A stretch of 36,185 bases of DNA from an uncultured Lachnospiraceae bacterium (GCA_946630825.1 CAMOZG010000003.1:1-36185); one strand, 5' to 3'. Shown: positions 13,017 to 32,901, numbered from the stretch's first letter. The notes: generated by a model not told the origin, from the sequence alone. Numbers and translations: made by a program.

Positions 13017-13895
13017 ATGAAAGGAATCATACTGGCAGGGGGCAGCGGCACCAGATTATATCCCCTGACCAAAGCCATATCAAAGCAGATCATGCCGGTG
13101 TATGACAAGCCCATGATCTATTATCCCCTTTCCACGCTTATGCTTTCGGGGATCAGGGAAATACTTATTATATCCACCCCCAGGGATCTGCCTGTATTCC
13201 GGGAGCTTTTATCCGACGGAAGCCAGTTGGGAATGGAGATAAGCTATGCCGTGCAGGAAGCGCCCAATGGACTGGCGGAGGCATTTTTGATCGGGGAGAG
13301 CTTCATAGGCTCTGATCCGGTGGCGCTGGTCTTGGGTGACAATATCTTTTACGGACAGAGCTTTTCAAAGGTATTAAGAGAGTCATTTGACAGGAGCACC
13401 AATGAAAAGGGTGCCACCATATTCGGGTATTATGTGAGAAATCCCAGGGAATATGGTGTGGTTGAATTTGACGAGACCGGCAAAGCCATATCCATAGAGG
13501 AAAAACCCCAAAAGCCGAAATCAAATTATGCGGTTCCGGGCTTGTATTTTTATGACAATGACGTTATCTCCATAGCAAAGGAGATAAAGCCCTCCGCCAG
13601 AGGTGAGCTTGAGATCACCTCAGTAAATGAGGCATATTTGAAAAGAGGGGATCTCCATGTGGAGACACTTGGCAGGGGCTTTGCCTGGCTTGATACCGGA
13701 AGCCACGATATGCTTCTGGCAGCAGCGGATTTTGTCTCCACCTTCCAAAAGAGGCAGGGGCTTTATATATCCTGCATAGAAGAGATCGCTTACAAGCGTG
13801 GCTTTATCGACAAAGAGCAGCTTCTTAAATTGGCAGAGCCATTGATGAAGACAGAATATGGCAGATACCTGGTGGAGGTTGCAGAGGGACTTTAA
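13017..13895 (+). CDS. rmlA: Glucose-1-phosphate thymidylyltransferase
   Basis: [54 protein letters not shown]. Confidence 0.96.
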
Positions 13896-15082
13896 TGGAA
13901 AATTCGGTAAATACAATTATAGAGTCCCACCCCATCAGAGCCCTTAAGGAAAAGTGGGGGTGTATATATGAGTGCGCCAATTCAGGAGCTTTGGATGTGC
14001 CGGTGTGGGCAAAGAGCGCCGCAGAAGCCGGGTTTTTGACAGACAAAAGATCCTTTGCCGAGGCTATCAGTCATGTCAGATCCATGGGCTTTGATGATTT
14101 CGTGTGCTTCGGCGCCAGACCGGATGTTTTTTTGCCTTCTGAGATCGTGAGGATAGATGACTTTGCGGTGCTGGAGGCAGAGGAATTTACCCACCCATCC
14201 ATAGGTGGATTTTTGTTTTTTAAAAAGTCAAAGCTTTTGGAAAATGTCACCTATGTCAAATACAATGAGCAGCGTGCCCCGGAGTACCGGCTTAAAACAG
14301 AGATCATCCGGGATGGTGATAAAAAGAAGGTGAAAAAGACAGCCACCCATCCTGATGCGGTGCCACATCTCCACAAGATCTTGGAAAACGGAGAGCTTTT
14401 GCGGGATCTGTACAGGGAGATATGGATGGTGCCTGTGGAGCGGGATGATGATACTGTTTACTTTATGTTTGTAGAGGGTGAGGGTCTTTTGTCGTCGGTG
14501 GATTTTGTTTCAGACTCTCCTAAGACAATAGTTAAAAAGATCAAAAAGGCAATGACTCCCATATTCAATTTCAACAGACAGTATGTCACGGTCTTTAAGG
14601 AGACCGAAGGGTTTCGCAGGCTTTTTGGCAGCCATCCTATTTTGGAGTACGACAGACCGGCGGTCACAAAATGTAATCTGGACTGCAATTTTGATAACTT
14701 TGGGAAAAAGGACGGGTATATCTACTGCTTTGACTATGAATGGGCGGTGGACTTTCCTGTACCCATTGACTATCTTAAGGTTCGGACACTCAGGTTTTTA
14801 TACGAGTCAGTGGAGTCCGAGCTGTCTAAAAAATTCGGCAGGGTGGAAAATTTTATTTTTGCCTTTGGCTTTTTGCCGGAGGAATACATAGTGTACACCC
14901 GCATGGAGGAATCCTTCCAGCAGCATGTACACGGGACGGATTACAGATACAGGTATACCACCACATTCAGCAATGAGCCTGTGGTGCACACACCGCCCCT
15001 TACTTATTCCACTCCCAGATGGAAATGGGTTTTAAAAAAGATCTACAGAAGGATATTCCCTGTAGTTTTACCTTTGGAGTAA
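13895..15082 (+). CDS. Uncharacterised glycan-cluster protein with possible divergent protein-kinase/APH-like fold
   Basis: NLDCNFDNFGKKDGYIYCFDYEW resembles the catalytic loop (D-x4-N) and metal-binding Asp of kinase-like folds; upstream RLKTEIIRDGDKKKVKKTA resembles a beta2-beta3 Lys region. ATG overlaps the rmlA stop. Confidence 0.5.
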   Translation: MENSVNTIIESHPIRALKEKWGCIYECANSGALDVPVWAKSAAEAGFLTDKRSFAEAISHVRSMGFDDFVCFGARPDVFLPSEIVRIDDFAVLEAEEFTHPSIGGFLFFKKSKLLENVTYVKYNEQRAPEYRLKTEIIRDGDKKKVKKTATHPDAVPHLHKILENGELLRDLYREIWMVPVERDDDTVYFMFVEGEGLLSSVDFVSDSPKTIVKKIKKAMTPIFNFNRQYVTVFKETEGFRRLFGSHPILEYDRPAVTKCNLDCNFDNFGKKDGYIYCFDYEWAVDFPVPIDYLKVRTLRFLYESVESELSKKFGRVENFIFAFGFLPEEYIVYTRMEESFQQHVHGTDYRYRYTTTFSNEPVVHTPPLTYSTPRWKWVLKKIYRRIFPVVLPLE

Positions 15083-18951: not shown

Positions 18952-19539
18952 ATGGGAAAGATCACGGTTTTAAAAAACTGCGGCGGAATAGAAGGCTTAT
19001 GTGTCATAGAGCCCCAGGTATTCGGAGACAGACGGGGATACTTTATGGAGACATATAACTACAGGGACTTTGCAGCCGAAGGTATTGATGTGGAATTTGT
19101 GCAGGACAACCAGTCTGCATCTACCCGGGGGGTACTGCGGGGACTTCATTTTCAGATAGAGCATCCCCAGGATAAGCTGGTAAGGGTGATCCGGGGAGAG
19201 GTGTATGACGTGGCTGTGGATCTACGGCCTGACTCAAAGACCTTTGGAAAGTGGTACGGGGTGGTGCTGTCGGATGAAAATAAAAAGCAGCTTTTCATAC
19301 CCAGGGATTTTGCCCACGGCTTTTTGGTGCTGTCGGATGAAGCGGAGTTTTGCTACAAGGTATCAGACTTTTATCACCCGGGTGACGAGGGAGGAATAAT
19401 GTGGAACGATCCCGACCTGGGAGTGGAATGGCCCATACCCGCAGATATGACAGAAAATGATATCAATCTCTCCGACAAGGACAAGGTGAATCCATCCTTT
19501 AAGGAAGTGAGCGCCGACAGAGGACACCGAATAGTATGA
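18952..19539 (+). CDS. rmlC: dTDP-4-dehydrorhamnose 3,5-epimerase
   Basis: EPQVFGDRRGYFMETYNYRDF...FVQDNQSASTRGVLRGLHFQIEHPQDKLVRVIRGEVYDVAVDLR. Confidence 0.96.
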   Translation: MGKITVLKNCGGIEGLCVIEPQVFGDRRGYFMETYNYRDFAAEGIDVEFVQDNQSASTRGVLRGLHFQIEHPQDKLVRVIRGEVYDVAVDLRPDSKTFGKWYGVVLSDENKKQLFIPRDFAHGFLVLSDEAEFCYKVSDFYHPGDEGGIMWNDPDLGVEWPIPADMTENDINLSDKDKVNPSFKEVSADRGHRIV

Positions 19540-20369
19540 GTTATAAAAAGAGTTCAATTTTAGATGTACCCAGATCCCTTAGGGGTAACGGCAGACTTAT
19601 TATAAATCTGGCAAAAAACGACTTTAAGACCAGATTTGCCGGATCATATCTGGGAGTGGTATGGGCTTTTGTGCAGCCGGTGGTGACGGTATTTGTCTAC
19701 TGGTTCGTCTTTGAAAAGGCGCTGAATGTGGCAGGACGCTCCACCAGAGCCGGAATAGAAGTTCCCTATGTGCTGTGGATGATAGCCGGTCTGGTTCCCT
19801 GGTTTTTCTTTTCCGAGGCGGTAAGCTTTGGAACATCCTGCCTGCTGGACTATAATTATCTGGTGAAAAAGGTGGTATTTAATATCAGCACACTGCCTGT
19901 GGTAAAGGTGGCGGCTTCGCTTTTTGTCCATGTGTTTTTCATAGCATTTATGATAATACTCTATGGGATATACGGGTTTTATCCCAATGTGTACATGCTG
20001 CAGATCATATACTACAGCTTTGCCACCATTCTTCTGATACTTGGGATAATATATATCACCAGTGCGGTGGTGGTTTTCTTTAAGGATCTGACACAGATCA
20101 TAAATATAGTGCTTCAGGTTTTGGTGTGGATGACTCCCATTATGTGGAATATGGACGGGATGAACCTGTCACCCACCGTGCGGACTCTTTTGATGGCAAA
20201 TCCCATGTATTATATAGTTGACGGCTACAGGGATGCCATGATAAATAATGTGTGGTTTTGGGAAAAGCCGGGGCTGACCTTGTATTTCTGGGTGGTGACA
20301 CTGATACTTCTGGCTCTGGGAAATTTTGTGTTTAGTAAGCTGAAGGCAATGCTGGCTGACGTTTTGTAA
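19536..20369 (+). CDS. Polysaccharide ABC transporter permease (Wzm/TagG-type)
   Basis: ABC-2 type exporter: LAKNDFKTRFAGSYLGVVWAFVQPVVTVFVYWFVF; NPMYYIVDGYRDAM. Confidence 0.93.
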   Translation: MSYKKSSILDVPRSLRGNGRLIINLAKNDFKTRFAGSYLGVVWAFVQPVVTVFVYWFVFEKALNVAGRSTRAGIEVPYVLWMIAGLVPWFFFSEAVSFGTSCLLDYNYLVKKVVFNISTLPVVKVAASLFVHVFFIAFMIILYGIYGFYPNVYMLQIIYYSFATILLILGIIYITSAVVVFFKDLTQIINIVLQVLVWMTPIMWNMDGMNLSPTVRTLLMANPMYYIVDGYRDAMINNVWFWEKPGLTLYFWVVTLILLALGNFVFSKLKAMLADVL

Positions 20370-20379
20370 GGATGAGATT

Positions 20380-21690
20380 ATGGCAAATGATACTGCTATC
20401 CGTGTTGCGGATGTAAGCAAAATGTATAAGCTTTTTGATAAAAAGACTGACCGGATATGGGATGCCTTAGGGATCGGTCCGAAGCGCTATGAGGAAAAGT
20501 ACGCCCTTAACCATCTGGATTTTGAGATAAAAAAGGGAGAGACGGTTGGTATCATAGGCACAAACGGTGCGGGCAAGTCCACACTTCTTAAGATAATCAC
20601 CGGAGTGGTGTATCCCACAGAGGGGGATGTGGAGATCAACGGCAAAATATCCGCACTTTTAGAACTGGGAGCAGGCTTTAATTACGAGTATACCGGCTTA
20701 GAAAATGTCTACCTCAATGGTCTGATGACGGGACTTACGAGAAAACAGGTGGATGAAAAGCTGGATGCGGTGCTGGAGTTTGCCGATATAGGAAAGTATA
20801 TTTATCAGCCGGTCAAGTCCTATTCCTCGGGGATGTTTGTGCGACTGGCATTTGCGGTTGCCATCAATGTGGATCCTGATATCCTTATAGTGGATGAGGC
20901 GCTGTCTGTGGGGGATGTTTTTTTTCAGGCAAAGTGCTATCGCAAATTTGAGGAGTTCAAGCGCTTAGGCAAGACCATTCTTTTTGTAAGTCATGACCTG
21001 TCCACCATTACAAGATATTGTGACAGAGCTATATTGCTCAACAAGGGGCATATGCTTTCCGAGGGCACACCCAAGGACATGGTGGACCTGTATAAAAAGG
21101 TCCTTGCCGGAGCTGCGGATGTGGAGGATATAGAAGCCGGGGGCGACATTAAAAAGACGAACCAGAAAAACGGCATACTCACAGAGGCAAAGACTGACGA
21201 TTCATGGAAATCCCATTTTAAGATCAATCCCATGGTGGACGAATACGGGGATGGCAGCGCAAAGATCGTGGATTTTGGTATATTTGACGACAAGGGGATG
21301 GTTACGGATACCATTCACAAGGGCTCGAACTTTACCATCCGTTCCAAGGTAAAGTTTATGAAGGAGGTACAGGATCCCATCTTTACCTATGCCTTTAAAA
21401 ATATTCAGGGGGTGTCCATCACCGGTACAAATACCATGTATGAGGGTATACTTACGGGGACAGCCGAAGAGGGAGATGAATATGTGGCGGAGTTTTCCCA
21501 GGAGATGAACCTTCAGGGAGGAGAGTATCTGCTGTCCATAAGCTGCACCGGGTATGCCCAGGGTGAGTTTAAGGTCTATTACAGACTTTATGATGTGATA
21601 AGTGTGACTGTGGTATCCATGCAAGATACGGTGGGCTTTTACGATATGTTTTCAAAAACACAGGTCACAAAAAACGGTAAAAGCCTGTAA
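20380..21690 (+). CDS. Polysaccharide ABC transporter ATPase (Wzt/TagH-type) with Wzt_C-like C-terminal domain
   Basis: Walker A GTNGAGKST, SYSSGMFVRLAFAVA signature, ILIVDEAL; C-terminal ~170 aa GDGSAKIVDFGIFDDKGMVTDTIHKGSNFTIRSKVKF...ISITGTNTMYEG-like beta-sandwich. Confidence 0.93.
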   Translation: MANDTAIRVADVSKMYKLFDKKTDRIWDALGIGPKRYEEKYALNHLDFEIKKGETVGIIGTNGAGKSTLLKIITGVVYPTEGDVEINGKISALLELGAGFNYEYTGLENVYLNGLMTGLTRKQVDEKLDAVLEFADIGKYIYQPVKSYSSGMFVRLAFAVAINVDPDILIVDEALSVGDVFFQAKCYRKFEEFKRLGKTILFVSHDLSTITRYCDRAILLNKGHMLSEGTPKDMVDLYKKVLAGAADVEDIEAGGDIKKTNQKNGILTEAKTDDSWKSHFKINPMVDEYGDGSAKIVDFGIFDDKGMVTDTIHKGSNFTIRSKVKFMKEVQDPIFTYAFKNIQGVSITGTNTMYEGILTGTAEEGDEYVAEFSQEMNLQGGEYLLSISCTGYAQGEFKVYYRLYDVISVTVVSMQDTVGFYDMFSKTQVTKNGKSL

Positions 21691-21799: not shown

Positions 21800-22816
21800 A
21801 TGGAATTGTTGCTGCCGATATTACTCATAGCAGTATATTTGTTTTTATTTTATCTGTGTGGTGTTATCCTTTGCCATGGGCTTGGGCGAAAGGAAAGCAT
21901 ACCCTTTAAGATCGTCTACGGATATTTCCTGTATTTTCTGTTGTTTTTCGCAGTTACCATCATCCCCAAGGCACTTAAGGCAAGCCTGACATTTTTATCT
22001 GTCCTGTGGGTCATAGTGGTCTGCCTGATCCTGATATTCGGCATACGTTTTTTGATAAGTGAGCGTGAGACCATAAATGCCGGTAAGGGATATATAGGTA
22101 TAACTTTGCTTCTTATCTTCCTCATGACGGCGCTTTTGAATACAAACGGCGACTATATCACCATATGGGATGCGGCATATTATATCGGTGATGTGAACAC
22201 CTCGGTCTACACTGACAGCATCAGCGCTTATGATCCCTACACCGGGGCGAAGCTCAGTTCCTTTACACCGGATTATTTTCTGGAGGTTTTGCAGAACCAC
22301 AGTGCAGTGGTTTGCAGGCTTTTTCATATACCTGCCCTGTTGGAGGTCAGGACCACCCTGTTTTCCGTCAATATAATTCTTTTCTACACAATAATCGTGT
22401 TGTTTTCGGGTATGTTTTTTGAAGACAGGGAAAAGCAGCGCACTCTGTTTTTAGTGCTGTTTATGTTTTTTGATCTTTTTACCTATAACCTGCACACCAG
22501 ATCCCAGATCCTTCTGATGAGAGGATATGAGGGAAAGGCGGTGGCTGCCAATATAATAATATTTGGGCTTTTGTATATACTCTTCAGATACATAGAAGGG
22601 GAAGATGATATATGGAAAGTGGGAGTTTTGGTCTCCATGGCAAGCTTTGGACTTAACATGACATCCATACTTTTAGTGCCGGCTCTTACGGCAGCAGTGT
22701 TGATACCCCATATGATCGTTACCGCAAAATATGACAGACTGCGGTATGCCATATACATAGTGCTGCCAATGGTATTTCCCGGAGTTATGTATCTGGGAAT
22801 GAAGTATTTGAGGTAG
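21800..22816 (+). CDS. Polytopic membrane protein A1 (DUF6077-like), candidate GT-C-type enzyme N-terminal part
   Basis: Multiple hydrophobic segments; loop motif WDAAYYIGDVNTSVYTDS shared with the 23656 ORF (WDTAFYLGNMNEALYTDT). Confidence 0.75.
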   Translation: MELLLPILLIAVYLFLFYLCGVILCHGLGRKESIPFKIVYGYFLYFLLFFAVTIIPKALKASLTFLSVLWVIVVCLILIFGIRFLISERETINAGKGYIGITLLLIFLMTALLNTNGDYITIWDAAYYIGDVNTSVYTDSISAYDPYTGAKLSSFTPDYFLEVLQNHSAVVCRLFHIPALLEVRTTLFSVNIILFYTIIVLFSGMFFEDREKQRTLFLVLFMFFDLFTYNLHTRSQILLMRGYEGKAVAANIIIFGLLYILFRYIEGEDDIWKVGVLVSMASFGLNMTSILLVPALTAAVLIPHMIVTAKYDRLRYAIYIVLPMVFPGVMYLGMKYLR

Positions 22817-22825
22817 AAGGTATTT

Positions 22826-23629
22826 ATGGATCTTACACTTACTTATGACGCACTGACCCAGGCATTTGAATCCCTTAAGGTGTATTTTTTAATATACTGC
22901 CTGTGCGTGGTTTTAATTTTTCTTCTGGGAAAGAGTCTGGATAGGGAGAGGTTTGTATATCCGGTTATCTTTTTGGTGCTGACTCTTTACAACCCGATAC
23001 TGGTGTCGCCCATAGCAGAGACCATAGGGCTTTTGCCCCGGATCAGACGGATCTACTGGCTTTTGCCGGTTACGCTTCTGATAGTTTATCTAATAGTAAG
23101 GGTGGTCTCGGAAGCCGGATCTGCGGTGTTTAAGGTGGCGGTGATCCTGGCGGCACTTTTGATTGCCGGAAGCTGGAATAACTATTTTGAAAACAGAAAG
23201 ACACCGGAAAACATATACAAAATATCTGACGAAAGCATCCTGGTATCTGAAAAGCTCCATGAGCTTTCTCCCCAGGACGGGGATATCATGGTGGTGTTTT
23301 CGGATGACAGACTTCAGGAGATCAGGATGTATGATGCATCCGTCAGAAATATTCTCAGGCGAAAGGATCTTTTAAACTGGCAGCCTGACGTGGAGGATGA
23401 GGAGTATGTCCGGGAGGTTTATGCTTCGGGAAAGACAAACAGGATCATCACTCTTTTTGTAAAATACGGATGTGTACCGGAGGATATAACCATATTGTCG
23501 GACGCTTTGGAAAAGAAGGATCCGGATTACCTTATCTGTGACAAGGACAGCATGAAAATGATGACATTGGAGGATATGGGCGCAAGGAAGGTGAGCGAAA
23601 CAGACAGTTTTGCCATATATGAGATCTGA
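22826..23629 (+). CDS. Membrane protein B1: N-terminal TM segments plus C-terminal soluble domain; partner of A1
   Basis: Same reading frame as A1, separated by one TAG; shares RRIYWLLPVT, QEIRMYDASVRNILRRKDLL and a C-terminal PDYLICD...AIYEI tail with the 24729 ORF. Confidence 0.7.
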   Translation: MDLTLTYDALTQAFESLKVYFLIYCLCVVLIFLLGKSLDRERFVYPVIFLVLTLYNPILVSPIAETIGLLPRIRRIYWLLPVTLLIVYLIVRVVSEAGSAVFKVAVILAALLIAGSWNNYFENRKTPENIYKISDESILVSEKLHELSPQDGDIMVVFSDDRLQEIRMYDASVRNILRRKDLLNWQPDVEDEEYVREVYASGKTNRIITLFVKYGCVPEDITILSDALEKKDPDYLICDKDSMKMMTLEDMGARKVSETDSFAIYEI

Positions 23630-23655
23630 GACTTTGCCCGGCGCCAAAACTTATC

Positions 23656-24732
23656 ATGTATGAAATAACAGCTACAATTTTAACAGTGGTCCTTTGTATT
23701 TTGTACTTCAGGCTGACAGGGACGGTGGTACTGAATATACTTGGACAGAAAAAACTCTATATTCACAGTGAACTTGTGGGATTTTTTGCAACCTTTTGCA
23801 TCTTCCAGTTTATCTATGTTCCCATGGTCATGCTTCGGGCAAATTTCCATTTTCTTGCCTATGGGTGGCTTATGGTCATTATCATAACGGTGCTGGTGTA
23901 TGGAGTATATCTGGTATCGGTAGGAGGGAGGCATCCCTTTATTATGCCGGAGGTAAAGATCTCTTTGGAGGGGACTTCCCGGAGGCTGTATCACTTTATC
24001 AAATGGATAGTCCTTTTGGGAGTCGCGGGATTTCTTGTCTTTATAGTGCTTCAGCAGTATGTTGGCTGGGATACGGCTTTTTACCTTGGAAACATGAATG
24101 AGGCACTTTATACGGATACAATGTATATCTACAACGGCAACAATGGTACCATGATGAAACAAATGGATCTGAGGTATGCTTTGTCAGGTTTTTCCATGTT
24201 CTTTTCCATTCCCTGTTATTTTCTGGGAATATCCCCCATAGTTATGTGTTATTTCGGCATAAGGGGGCTTGGGGTCATACTGGCGCTTATGATAGTCTAT
24301 GATTTCGGAGTGCTTATCTTTGATGCCGAGATCCCGGCATACCTTATGGTGGGAGCATATTTGACAGTTAATATGATGTTCTTTTCCACCATGTCCTCAT
24401 CCCTCTTTTTTATGAGACGTATGAATGAGGCAAAGGGATATTGTGCAAATGTGGTTTTGCCCATGGTGGCGCTGTTGCTTTTTATGATCTACAAAAACAA
24501 GGGCAAGGGACTTTTTCGCCTGCTCTTTTTAGTGTGTCTGGGGAGTGTGGGTGCCTCCATGTCATCCATGATGCTGGTGCCGGCGCTTTTGGGACTTTCC
24601 TCTGTGGTTATAGCACAGTCCCAGAGGAAGCTTAGACCAATAGTATACGGGATCATATGTGCCCTTCCGAATCTGGCATATGCGGCAGTGTATTTACTTA
24701 ATGCAAAGGATTATCTGGTGATTGAGATATGA
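23656..24732 (+). CDS. Polytopic membrane protein A2 (DUF6077-like), paralogue of A1
   Basis: WDTAFYLGNMNEALYTDT; GASMSSMMLVPALLG parallels GLNMTSILLVPALTA of A1. Confidence 0.75.
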   Translation: MYEITATILTVVLCILYFRLTGTVVLNILGQKKLYIHSELVGFFATFCIFQFIYVPMVMLRANFHFLAYGWLMVIIITVLVYGVYLVSVGGRHPFIMPEVKISLEGTSRRLYHFIKWIVLLGVAGFLVFIVLQQYVGWDTAFYLGNMNEALYTDTMYIYNGNNGTMMKQMDLRYALSGFSMFFSIPCYFLGISPIVMCYFGIRGLGVILALMIVYDFGVLIFDAEIPAYLMVGAYLTVNMMFFSTMSSSLFFMRRMNEAKGYCANVVLPMVALLLFMIYKNKGKGLFRLLFLVCLGSVGASMSSMMLVPALLGLSSVVIAQSQRKLRPIVYGIICALPNLAYAAVYLLNAKDYLVIEI

Positions 24733-25505
24733 CGGAGACTTTGGAGATCTTAATTAAATATTTTCAAGGACCCCAGTGGCTTATACTCTTTGGGCTGGTA
24801 TATGTGTATACCATTGTAAAGGCAAAAAAGGGGGAGAGGATATCCCTTATTATCGGGACCCTTCTTTTCTTTTTATGTATATATAATGACTTTATATATG
24901 GTGCCATGAGTAAGGTGGTGGAGTCGGAGGTATATTACAGATTCATATGGATCATACCGGTGACTGTGTGGATAGCCTATGGACTGGTGGGGTTGTTTTT
25001 GGACCTGAAAAAAATATGGCTCAGGGTGCCCTTTGTGGTTTTTGCCCTGATTTGTCTGGTGTCCATGGATCACACCTGGCTGGAGCGGGACCGGGGCACC
25101 TGGAGCAGACCGGAGAATGAGTATCTCATGCCGGGGGAGGTCCTGGCAATATCTGAGGTGCTTCAAAATGAGCATCCCTGGGGAGAAAAGATAAGATGCG
25201 TGCTGCCTCTGGGAATGACAATGCAGCTTAGATGTGTGGATGCCTCCGTGGAGTGCGTGATCCCCAGAAGGGATTATCTGAAAATGAGCGGTCAGTCCAA
25301 AAAGCCTTACAAGCAAAAAGAACTGGCATTTATGATAGAAAAAAACAAACGTCCCGATAAAGAAAAACTAAAGCAGCTTTTAAAGGAAAGCGAGACTGAT
25401 TATATAGTAGCTTATACAGACTATGACATGGAGGATTATCTTAAGTCGGCAGACTGTGAGCTCATTGAGACCACAGGAGCATTTGAGGTGTACAGGGTAA
25501 GATGA
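24729..25505 (+). CDS. Membrane protein B2, paralogue of B1
   Basis: YRFIWIIPVT, MQLRCVDASVECVIPRRDYLK, TDYIVAYTDYD...FEVYRVR; ATGA overlap with A2. Confidence 0.72.
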   Translation: MTETLEILIKYFQGPQWLILFGLVYVYTIVKAKKGERISLIIGTLLFFLCIYNDFIYGAMSKVVESEVYYRFIWIIPVTVWIAYGLVGLFLDLKKIWLRVPFVVFALICLVSMDHTWLERDRGTWSRPENEYLMPGEVLAISEVLQNEHPWGEKIRCVLPLGMTMQLRCVDASVECVIPRRDYLKMSGQSKKPYKQKELAFMIEKNKRPDKEKLKQLLKESETDYIVAYTDYDMEDYLKSADCELIETTGAFEVYRVR

Positions 25506-27644: not shown

Positions 27645-29084
27645 ATGGATAACAGTATTTACGGCAGAAAAGAAAACCATATACAGGGAAAATACGTATT
27701 CAGATGGGTGTGCGGTATTTTTCATACCCTCTATGCCAGTCTGACCTTTTGGTGGGTCTGGATCTCATACACCACTGTCCATGACCAGACAGGACATCTG
27801 ACAGGACTTGCCAACAGACTAATGGCGCTTTTGATCTATGCCTTTATATTTGTTTTTCTCATGCGCTCCATGGGAGGATATCTCATAGGTGTCAGCAGAA
27901 AGATGAATGTGGTGGGATCAATAGTTGTGGCGCTTTTTATCACAGACGGGGCAGAGGTATTTATATCTCTGGCAATTACGGGTCAGTTCAGATTTTTCGG
28001 TGCATTTTTGTGGAGGTACATACTGCTTTTTCTGGTACAGACATTTTGCATATCTTTATCAAGCATACTGCTTATTGACCTGTACAGGGTGAAATTCCCA
28101 CCGCTTAGGCTTATAGAGATCTATGGATCCCATCCTAATAGAGTGGCTAAAAAAATGGGATTTCGGGATGACAAGTATGTATTTGACGGACGCATACACT
28201 GTGATGAACCAAACGATAAAATGATAGAGACCATCCTGCCCTATGATGCGGTTTTGATAAATGACGTGCCCTCTGAGAGGGAGGATGAGCTTTTAAGACT
28301 GTGCTTTGATATCAACAAGAGGGTGTACTTTACTCCCGCCATTTCGGATGTCATGATAAAGTCCAGTGACGACATAAATCTTTTTGACACTCCCATATAT
28401 CTTTGCAGAAACAGCGGTATGTCTGCCTGGCAGCGGTTCTGGAAGAGGTTTTTTGATATTACCCTTTCAGTGATTGCAATCATCCTGCTTTCTCCGCTAC
28501 TTGTCATAGTGGCACTTCTGATCCATGCAGAGGACGGCGGTCCGGTGTTTTACAGACAGGAAAGAGTCACCTTAAACGGCAGGCATTTTATGATACTTAA
28601 ATTCAGAAGTATGATAGTAAATGCCGAAAAGGATAACAGAAGCATACCGGCAGGAGCGGAGGATCCGCGGATCACAAGGATAGGCAGATTTATCCGTGCC
28701 ACAAGAATTGACGAGCTGCCCCAGCTTTTTAACATAGCAAGGGGAGATATGTCCATAGTGGGTCCCCGGCCTGAAAGGGTGGCTCATGTGGAAAAATATA
28801 CCAGGGATATCCCGGAGTTTCGTTACCGGCTTAAAATGAGGGGTGGTCTGACAGGGTATGCGCAGGTGTACGGAAAATACAATACCACAGCCATTGACAA
28901 GCTTAAGATGGATCTCAGTTATATTACCAACTATTCACTGCTTTTAGATGTGCAGATCATATTTGAGACCCTCAGGGTCATCATGCAAAAGGAAAGCACG
29001 GAGGGCTTTTCCGAGGAGGATCAAAAGATCATGCATGAAGCTGATAATCATGGAGTGACACCCGGGGAGGAAGAAAATGAGTGA
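27645..29084 (+). CDS. Polyprenyl-phosphate sugar-1-phosphate transferase (WbaP/WcaJ-like initiating transferase)
   Basis: N-terminal TM segments, CoA-binding-like domain, then GGPVFYRQERVTLNGRHFMILKFRSMIVNAE...RIDELPQLFNIARGDMSIVGPRPERV. Confidence 0.94.
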   Translation: MDNSIYGRKENHIQGKYVFRWVCGIFHTLYASLTFWWVWISYTTVHDQTGHLTGLANRLMALLIYAFIFVFLMRSMGGYLIGVSRKMNVVGSIVVALFITDGAEVFISLAITGQFRFFGAFLWRYILLFLVQTFCISLSSILLIDLYRVKFPPLRLIEIYGSHPNRVAKKMGFRDDKYVFDGRIHCDEPNDKMIETILPYDAVLINDVPSEREDELLRLCFDINKRVYFTPAISDVMIKSSDDINLFDTPIYLCRNSGMSAWQRFWKRFFDITLSVIAIILLSPLLVIVALLIHAEDGGPVFYRQERVTLNGRHFMILKFRSMIVNAEKDNRSIPAGAEDPRITRIGRFIRATRIDELPQLFNIARGDMSIVGPRPERVAHVEKYTRDIPEFRYRLKMRGGLTGYAQVYGKYNTTAIDKLKMDLSYITNYSLLLDVQIIFETLRVIMQKESTEGFSEEDQKIMHEADNHGVTPGEEENE

Positions 29085-31027: not shown

Positions 31028-32188
31028 ATGAGATTAGTCTATCTGAAAAAAAAGTTGATCGCAGGTGTTTTGGTTTCCACCTTGACGGCGGGGCTGTTTT
31101 TTGGCACCACCGCTGATGCTACCAGAAGCATAGAGGAGATTCAGCGGGACAAAGACAATCTGCAGGAGGAGATAAATGCATTAGACTCGGAGCTTGTGGA
31201 TCTTTTGGCAGATATCAGTACCCTTTCTTCAGAGATCGACCAGAATGAGCAGGAGATCGCAGACTTAAAGATCGAGCTTCAGGAGGCAAAAAAGGCTGAG
31301 AAGAAGCAGTATAAATACATGAAAAAGCGCATGAAGGCAATGTATGAAAACGATCAGAAAAGCCTGATCATGATGCTTTTGGAATCAGGCAGTTTCAGCG
31401 ATTTTCTCAATAAGATCGAATATGCCAATGCGGTATATGAATACGATCAGCAGCTTCTTAACACATATATAGGTGTCAAGGAAGAGATCAAGGAAATGGA
31501 GAACGCGCTTGAAAAGGAGCAGGTGGCTCTTCAGACCGAGAAAAACAATCTTTCTGCCAAGCAGGCTTCCCTTGACAGTATGATCACGGCAAAGCGATCC
31601 CAGATGAAGGATTTTGACCAGCAGCTTAAAAAGGCGCAGGAGCTGGCAAGGAGAAAGGCTGAGGAGGAGAGGCTGGAGAGAGAACGGAAAAGACAGGAAG
31701 AGATGGCAAGACGGATGCTTGAAGCCCAGCAGGCTCAGGCAGAGGCAGCCGCAGCGGAAGAAAGTGATGACGGAGATGACGGCAGTGTGGATGACGGTAC
31801 TGACGGACAGAGTTTAAATCCCAGTCCCACCACGGGAGTCAGTGGCTCGGCGGTGGTGTCCTATGCCAATCAGTTTGTGGGCAATCCCTATGTGTGGGGC
31901 GGTAATTCCCTGACAGAGGGCTGCGACTGTTCCGGCTTTGTGGTTCAGGTGTATGGACATTTTGGGATCAATCTGTCGGGATCCCGTAGTTCAGCCGCTT
32001 TAAGATCAGTGGGAAGCGCCGTAAGTATTGACAATGTACAGCCGGGAGATATAGTCTGCTATCCGGGTCATGTGGGATTATATGCAGGAGGCGGCACCAT
32101 AGTTGAGGCTCAAAGCAGCCGGGCAGGCATAACCAATAACAGATCCATATATTGCCATGAGATTTTGGCAATAAGAAGAGTAGTGTGA
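31028..32188 (+). CDS. Secreted coiled-coil NlpC/P60 peptidoglycan endopeptidase (CwlO-like)
   Basis: Signal peptide, long coiled coil, acidic linker, C-terminal GNPYVWGGNSLTEGCDCSGFVVQVYGHFG...GDIVCYPGHVGLY. Confidence 0.92.
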   Translation: MRLVYLKKKLIAGVLVSTLTAGLFFGTTADATRSIEEIQRDKDNLQEEINALDSELVDLLADISTLSSEIDQNEQEIADLKIELQEAKKAEKKQYKYMKKRMKAMYENDQKSLIMMLLESGSFSDFLNKIEYANAVYEYDQQLLNTYIGVKEEIKEMENALEKEQVALQTEKNNLSAKQASLDSMITAKRSQMKDFDQQLKKAQELARRKAEEERLERERKRQEEMARRMLEAQQAQAEAAAAEESDDGDDGSVDDGTDGQSLNPSPTTGVSGSAVVSYANQFVGNPYVWGGNSLTEGCDCSGFVVQVYGHFGINLSGSRSSAALRSVGSAVSIDNVQPGDIVCYPGHVGLYAGGGTIVEAQSSRAGITNNRSIYCHEILAIRRVV

Positions 32189-32901
32189 CCGGGGGGATGG
32201 GGCTTTTGCCCGGATACATTCGAAAGGTGATGCTTTTGGCGGTACTGGCGGTGGTGCTGGTGGCTTTCGGAGCTTTTCATTATGAGATGATCTCCCCCAT
32301 AGTCTATGAAGATAAGCTGGATTCGGTGGCGGTGACTGTGGATGGAGATGAGCTGACCCTCAGGGATCTTAGCTTCTATGTACTTTATGAGGAGCAGACC
32401 ATTGAGACAGAGGCTATGATATATAATTCCGAAAACACCAGGGATTTTTGGAATCTTCATGCCAACGGCATATTTTTTAAGTTTGCGGCAAAAAAATATG
32501 TGATGGATATGGCTGTACATGACTATCTGATGTACAAGGGTGCCCTGGAAGCAGAAATGACCCTTACGGATGAAGAACAAGAGATATTAAAAGACAGCTA
32601 TAATGATTTTCTGGATGATCTGCTTTTACAGCAAAAGGATTCGGGGCTTTATGATGAGCAGGTCATATATGAGACCATGGAGCGCATAGCACTGTCGGAA
32701 AAGTATCGGGGATATCTGGCGGACAGGGATGAAACTACCTACGGCGGATATGGCTATGACGGTCGTGATTATCAGAAATATCTTAAGGATCATAAGGTAA
32801 AGATCAACCACAGGATCTGGGACAGAGTTGCTATAGGTGATAACAGTCTGGTACACAAAAGTGCCAGCGGAGTAAACGGACAGGAGTCAGAGGATGAATG
32901 A
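32185..32901 (+). CDS. Membrane-anchored SurA_N-like protein (foldase-like, no recognisable PPIase domain)
   Basis: N-terminal TM; VAVTVDGDELTLRDLSFYVLYEEQTIE...FWNLHANGIFFKFAAKKYVMDMAVHDYLMYKGALEAEMTLTDEEQEIL. Confidence 0.55.
   Translation: MTGGMGLLPGYIRKVMLLAVLAVVLVAFGAFHYEMISPIVYEDKLDSVAVTVDGDELTLRDLSFYVLYEEQTIETEAMIYNSENTRDFWNLHANGIFFKFAAKKYVMDMAVHDYLMYKGALEAEMTLTDEEQEILKDSYNDFLDDLLLQQKDSGLYDEQVIYETMERIALSEKYRGYLADRDETTYGGYGYDGRDYQKYLKDHKVKINHRIWDRVAIGDNSLVHKSASGVNGQESEDE

Follow-up and report, generated by a model that had tools for sequence, protein, structure and literature searches.

Paired DUF6077 genes in a Lachnospiraceae glycan cluster probably encode GT-C glycosyltransferases divided between two polypeptides

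Results

Two related gene pairs in tandem

We analyzed a 36,185-nucleotide stretch of DNA from an uncultured gut bacterium of the Lachnospiraceae (GCA_946630825.1 CAMOZG010000003.1:1-36185; hereafter the window), in which positions 21800-25505 are filled by four open reading frames (ORFs), named here A1, B1, A2, and B2, that follow one another on the + strand with gaps of at most 26 bp. The A genes encode members of the Pfam family DUF6077, and each B gene probably encodes the second half of a glycosyltransferase C (GT-C) enzyme.

21800..22816, + strand: A1, DUF6077 protein of 338 aa (PF19554, E 5.4e-59; helices from model; positive-inside pattern)
22826..23629, + strand: B1, 267 aa, probable second half of a GT-C enzyme (B profile from relatives; joint model with A1)
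23656..24732, + strand: A2, DUF6077 protein of 358 aa with A1-like architecture (PF19554, E 9.1e-54)
24729..25505, + strand: B2, 258 aa, probable second half of the second enzyme (sequence; B profile)
22814..22828, + strand: A1/B1 junction, with one in-frame TAG, AGAAGG, and the B1 ATG (sequence)

The original prediction noted a likeness of A1 to A2 and of B1 to B2, which BLASTP confirmed beyond chance: A1 and A2 are 22% identical over their full length (356 columns, 72 bits, E 1e-18), and B1 and B2 are 21% identical over 270 columns (51.6 bits, E 2e-12). As the latter alignment includes the soluble tail, the likeness exceeds common hydrophobicity. PF19554 covers A1 and A2 end to end (200 and 183 bits, cut-off 27). 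No curated family in Pfam or NCBIfam matched B1 or B2; YfhO (PF09586) was hit by B2 only, under its cut-off of 28.5 (8.7 bits, E 0.64). At the A1/B1 junction, the Shine-Dalgarno-like AGAAGG overlaps the A1 TAG, and the B1 ATG follows three codons downstream in an unchanged frame, while the A2 stop and the B2 start overlap as ATGA.

The split is conserved among relatives

DUF6077 was found above cut-off in 142 of 396 sampled genomes or species of the same family, apparently Lachnospiraceae, and in few elsewhere; among named records, close relatives come almost entirely from Lachnospiraceae (e.g., Eisenbergiella tayi, Butyrivibrio, and Parablautia muri). Using A and B profiles made from relatives and a six-frame scan of the loci, we assembled 93 A and 91 B sequences, among which were 80 split pairs and nine one-ORF pairs, with the order A then B throughout. 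One-ORF forms were fetched deliberately and are overrepresented in this count; in a broad scan of the family, about five of the approximately 150 matches listed were confirmed as unsplit. In a separate, independent collection of 80 loci from named genomes, built from one subfamily and hence sampling one branch of the DUF6077 family, B lay directly after A in 76, was absent from two, and was cut by a contig end in two, so that the A-then-B order was seen in 76 of 78 uncut loci. A split at the same place in both window pairs, as had been proposed, was borne out, and its position is conserved across the DUF6077 family.

The A and B proteins also coevolve: the distances among A sequences and those among B sequences are strongly correlated (Mantel r 0.86; permutation maximum 0.17), a correlation that common inheritance alone would also yield and that indicates a stable partnership, not contact. 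One genome, G058, carries A (L065:10004-11095) and B (L085:9373-10305) on different contigs, both at interior positions. The former sits behind a GtrB-like gene and the latter in another glycan cluster, and their places on the A and B trees fit a separated pair.

Homologues that are not split, whose existence the original prediction required, number at least seven: A and B profiles match within one ORF at L112 (609 aa), L113 (622), L115 (611), L156 (707), L157 (622), L158 (621), and L159 (650). On an A tree including L112, L113, and L115, the unsplit state requires at least two changes. At L164 and L165, an unsplit relative (L164:8765-10729 and L165:8233-10248) comes immediately after a split pair; its outer loop reads VYNNEYT or VYENDYV where the majority has DDAFY; judging from these residues, the catalytic Asp may have been lost, and a non-catalytic partner is conceivable. 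Three other candidates, all long, weak matches in near relatives, were rejected: those in G003 and G033 resemble sensor-type membrane proteins, and G010:C25 (L074) resembles another single-chain transferase with a YDELY motif. Read-through of a stop codon was likewise rejected as a general route to fusion, as a frame difference or several stops separate A from B in A2-B2 and in most other pairs.

Predicted fold, position of the cut, and conserved residues

A1-B1 was modelled with AlphaFold as one chain, read through the TAG, from a 45-row alignment. The model reached a predicted local distance difference test (pLDDT) of 87.7 and a predicted template modelling score (pTM) of 0.91; that of the naturally unsplit L112 protein reached 89.2 and 0.92. 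When the A1-B1 model was compared with the PDB by Foldseek, the top 13 matches were all GT-C enzymes (best E 4.4e-5), among them AftA, STT3, DPY19, ALG12, ALG9, and ArnT. For L112, the top 24 were all GT-C (best E 7e-7), including STT3, AglB, DPY19, AftA, PglB, ArnT, Pmt4, EmbB/EmbC, AftB, and Pmt1. At E<=0.001 the matches were exclusively GT-C (nine for A1-B1 and 15 for L112), with TM-scores of 0.35-0.49. A PDB sequence search with a profile of A plus B gave no match; the kinship with GT-C enzymes is therefore distant, resting on fold comparison and on a short profile match to DUF6056, in which A residues 111-144 (profile numbering; the fourth helix and the start of the outer loop) match DUF6056 residues 10-42 with a probability of 94%. 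B alone gave no significant match to DUF6056 or YfhO by hhalign.

The A1-B1 model has about 14 transmembrane (TM) helices. A1 is predicted to contribute 10, of which TM1-3 are additional N-terminal helices and TM4-10 form the seven-helix GT-C core, including an extracytoplasmic loop; in the joint model, B1 adds four (TM11-14) and an extracytoplasmic domain. Within A, a helix at 98-117, juxtamembrane helices at 123-138 and 164-175, and six further TM helices reproduce the pattern of the GT-CA core, which consists of TM1-7 and two juxtamembrane helices, the first of them tipped by an essential Asp (PMC12041299). Lysine plus arginine counts per loop alternate as expected (inside means 2.2-5.8; short outside loops 0.03-1.2) and put the B tail, like the large first loop, on the outer side. 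With the core and the Asp in A and the remainder in B, the modelled cut is in an outer loop immediately after the seven-helix core.

The following codons encode conserved residues:

22169..22171, + strand: A1 Asp124, putatively catalytic (acidic residue in 91% of the 93 A sequences; model)
24070..24072, + strand: A2 Asp139, equivalent of A1 Asp124 (alignment column 230)
23048..23050, + strand: B1 Arg75, in a YxRxxWxxP motif (Arg in 93% of the B family)
24939..24941, + strand: B2 Arg71, in the YxRxxWxxP motif (alignment)

In the model, A1 Asp124 sits at the starting tip of helix 123-138, the first of the two juxtamembrane helices. The A family also conserves an RxWQGK motif and the B family, in B1 numbering, R75 (93%), W78, P81, N129, R167 (96%), and R179; the B arginines may contact donor or acceptor. 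As the Asp and the B arginines are kept in both window pairs, both look functional.

The two window pairs have separate histories

On the trees, the nearest relative of A1-B1 is a single pair, L068, from another species of the genus (A 38% and B 33% identical), while A2-B2 is nearest to the second pairs of L061 and L066, from two other species (66-74% identical). The first pairs of L061 and L066 belong to a different subfamily, grouping with L060, L062, and L063. The A-B-A-B order also occurs in G006, G007, G055, G561, and G784 (L061, L066, L069, L160, and L161), and the two pairs within tandems share only 14-23% identity. The second slot is thus stable in the genus and the first varies, which argues for two enzymes and against a recent copy. 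As judged from sequence, the window module is two old, diverged pairs side by side, either brought together or remaining together in this cluster. It had been suggested that one enzyme was split, then duplicated and diverged; the same-place split and the divergence stand, but a local or fresh duplication does not agree with the separate nearest relatives.

Glycan cluster and donor genes

The pairs had been placed inside a glycan cluster, and the window indeed holds one whose product is exported by an ATP-binding cassette (ABC) transporter:

19536..20369, + strand: ABC-2 permease of the Wzm/TagG type, polysaccharide export (PF01061)
20380..21690, + strand: ABC ATPase carrying a C-terminal Wzt domain, immediately upstream of A1 (PF00005, PF14524)
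27645..29084, + strand: polyprenyl glycosylphosphotransferase, glycan start (PF02397; TIGR03025 above cut-off)

The Wzt domain of the exporter is carbohydrate-binding. The cluster also includes a sugar-nucleotide synthase, a dTDP-sugar epimerase, several transferases, a TagB/TagF-like glycerophosphotransferase, and wall hydrolases. Two further ORFs had no family match: one of 395 aa (13895-15082; Pfam and NCBIfam), a member of the glycan cluster with homologues near many DUF6077 pairs, and one of 238 aa (32185-32901; Pfam), which L061 and L066 also keep next to this cluster.

Polyprenyl-phosphate sugar synthases of the PgfS/GtrB-like kind were present at 14 of 55 DUF6077 loci (~18 kb each) where ~1.3 would be expected from three to four copies per ~2.8-Mb genome, bearing in mind that glycan clusters are transferase-enriched anyway. 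At the unsplit L112, a PgfS-like gene lies 4 bp upstream. Small genes that separate GT2 from A at L072 and L065, and one immediately preceding A at L064, were considered as GtrA flippases and rejected; their products are a Spo0A C-terminal-domain protein, a SPOUT methyltransferase, and a membrane protein with no assignment.

B proteins with additional domains

Some B proteins carry extra C-terminal domains, which lie on the predicted outer side:

L060:10759-12402, L062:11143-12780, L063:10959-12599: B with a C-terminal metallo-beta-lactamase fold
L127:10618-12171, L138:2533-4023, L147:2-1573: B with a C-terminal metallo-beta-lactamase fold
L068:9854-11320, L069:10248-11795: B with a C-terminal histidine phosphatase (PF00300)
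L126:6828-9215: B with ~550 residues of RHS-like repeats at the C-terminus

The metallo-beta-lactamase form occurs at L060, L062, L063, L127, L128, L138, and L147, the assignment at L062, L063, and L128 being by likeness to scanned relatives; these domains may act on the polymer decorated by the transferase, trimming or hydrolysing it. A comparable extension at L125 has lost the HxHxDH motif. The predicted position of the L068 and L069 histidine phosphatases outside the cell is unusual for a mostly cytoplasmic family.

Discussion

Each A-B pair is, very probably, one GT-C membrane glycosyltransferase made as two polypeptides, with an outward active site and a likely role in decorating an exported polysaccharide. 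The original prediction of a single split GT-C-like enzyme is thus supported by the GT-C fold models, the unsplit homologues, and the conserved same-place split, and from these we infer its activity and assembly. We postulate that A spans the membrane 10 times, as three extra helices and the seven-helix core, with the putative catalytic Asp in the first large outer loop of the core, and that B would supply four helices and an outer domain whose conserved arginines are placed for binding donor phosphate or acceptor. The two proteins would be translated in close coupling and assemble one outward-facing active site. With its active site predicted to face outside, the enzyme would act after export, most likely taking a sugar from a polyprenyl-phosphate carrier and adding it to the polysaccharide exported by the neighboring ABC transporter; the two diverged pairs would probably form two different linkages or use two acceptors. 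We regard it as an even call whether a GT-C enzyme split by nature at the border of its conserved core and variable part is recognised here for the first time, with two obligate subunits that complete the active site between them, B fixing the choice of acceptor and in some species carrying extra outer domains.

Several points weigh against this assignment. Neither A nor B is placed in a known glycosyltransferase family by Pfam or NCBIfam, and the second Asp of the usual DD motif is absent from A1 and A2. TM-scores to solved GT-C enzymes are moderate (0.4-0.5), in keeping with a remote relationship. Modelled as a single chain, A1-B1 gives one confident unit, as had been envisaged, but the interface is implied by that one-chain model, and its pTM owes something to read-through rows in the alignment. 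No GtrB-like donor synthase lies beside the window pairs, and the only PgfS-like gene found in the genome, an incomplete assembly (2.05 Mb, 81% complete), is on another contig, G000:C12. No GtrA- or Wzx-type flippase was present among the window genes scanned, no genome-wide flippase search having been made.

The nature of the reaction can be read differently. An enzyme resembling oligosaccharyltransferases might move the whole exported glycan en bloc off polyprenyl diphosphate and onto an acceptor that is either a protein or part of the wall: in the PDB, the unsplit L112 model matches STT3, AglB, and PglB best, the cluster begins with a polyprenyl glycosylphosphotransferase, and 41 of the 55 DUF6077 loci have no nearby GtrB-like gene. 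However, the match is about as good to AftA, DPY19, and ArnT, whose donors are polyprenyl-phosphate monosaccharides, GtrB/PgfS-like genes are enriched near the pairs, and two different pairs per cluster suit two decorations better, so that we consider en-bloc transfer unlikely. Polyprenyl-phosphate systems are known, and with GtrB/PgfS-like genes near the loci, we therefore place single-sugar decoration ahead of it with moderate confidence. That A-B is instead a transporter or flippase for a lipid-linked sugar seems highly improbable; it is a polytopic membrane protein beside export genes, in a family annotated as of unknown function, but the confident fold matches are all GT-C transferases, transporters appear at a probability of <=0.18 at most, and an acidic residue is kept at the catalytic position of the outer loop.

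Whether A and B are halves of one enzyme is a separate matter. They could be functionally independent and share only an operon, A being, for instance, a complete enzyme and B an accessory acceptor-binding protein. The whole seven-helix core and the conserved Asp lie within A, one genome has A and B at separate loci (L065 and L085), and a few A genes lack an adjacent B. We nevertheless find independence rather improbable, given the natural one-chain homologues, the conserved residues in both halves, the strong co-inheritance, the single compact model, and the fact that the helices supplied by B are normally part of single-chain GT-C enzymes. Sequencing error or decay of a one-chain gene, which the shared frame and single TAG between A1 and B1 might suggest, we can practically dismiss. 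The 80 split pairs vary in gap and frame, B has its own start and a ribosome-binding-like sequence, and the conserved residues are kept in both pairs. Split pairs also occur in one- and two-contig genomes (G773, G812, and G817), and the same genomes, the window's among them, keep YfhO, a further single-chain GT-C family, intact; the split is therefore not an assembly error, and this explanation is refuted for the DUF6077 family. A YfhO-type GT-C domain in the window's genome (G000:C65:5379-7886) lies in an open frame of 1452 aa, most relatives having ~830-1100 aa.

The two-polypeptide enzyme that we propose resembles the GT-CA enzymes (AftA, AftB, ArnT, STT3/PglB, and DPY19) in predicted fold, in a core with juxtamembrane helices, and in the position of the Asp. 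Those enzymes, however, are single polypeptides, a common though not strictly defining feature of the fold, whereas A-B has the core and the other helices in separate proteins and, unlike them, three helices before the core. DUF6056 (PF19528) is also similar, its start aligning with the fourth helix and outer loop of A, but it is one chain of ~500 aa that has no counterpart of TM1-3. As an accessory subunit, Pbn1/PIG-X joins a GT-C chain that is already complete, whereas B would be the missing half of one. With Gpi14/PIG-M it makes up glycosylphosphatidylinositol mannosyltransferase I, a GT-C enzyme of two polypeptides (PMC12653191). In CsbB-GtcA-YfhO and GtrAB-Gtr systems, the polyprenyl-phosphate sugar is made by a CsbB/GtrB-type enzyme (PMC8035078); in these systems a GT-C enzyme acts outside on surface polymers, as proposed for A-B, and PgfS/GtrB-like synthases lie near some DUF6077 loci, but the GT-C component of these systems is one chain. 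The same review speculates that acceptor binding by small GT-C enzymes may depend on a second protein (PMC8035078), an idea that the split form opens to test.

In Pfam, A1 and A2 are full members of DUF6077, the model for which spans the first half only and records neither a function nor the two-part nature, and the partner B is unannotated. Among the open-licence papers searched, none dealt with DUF6077, DUF6056, or a split GT-C enzyme. As far as sequence comparison and that literature reach, a two-polypeptide GT-C enzyme thus appears to be widespread in its bacterial family and undescribed. GT-C enzymes make N-glycans, mycobacterial arabinan, and teichoic-acid decorations, and to our knowledge they have been treated as indivisible membrane proteins. 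A natural split, together with unsplit relatives in one family, suggests that the core and the variable parts are separable, and a split enzyme would be a handy tool for exchanging acceptor-recognition halves in laboratory strains. For the Lachnospiraceae, the analysis offers a likely function for DUF6077 and its unannotated partner B, in surface-glycan clusters that are met by host and phage.

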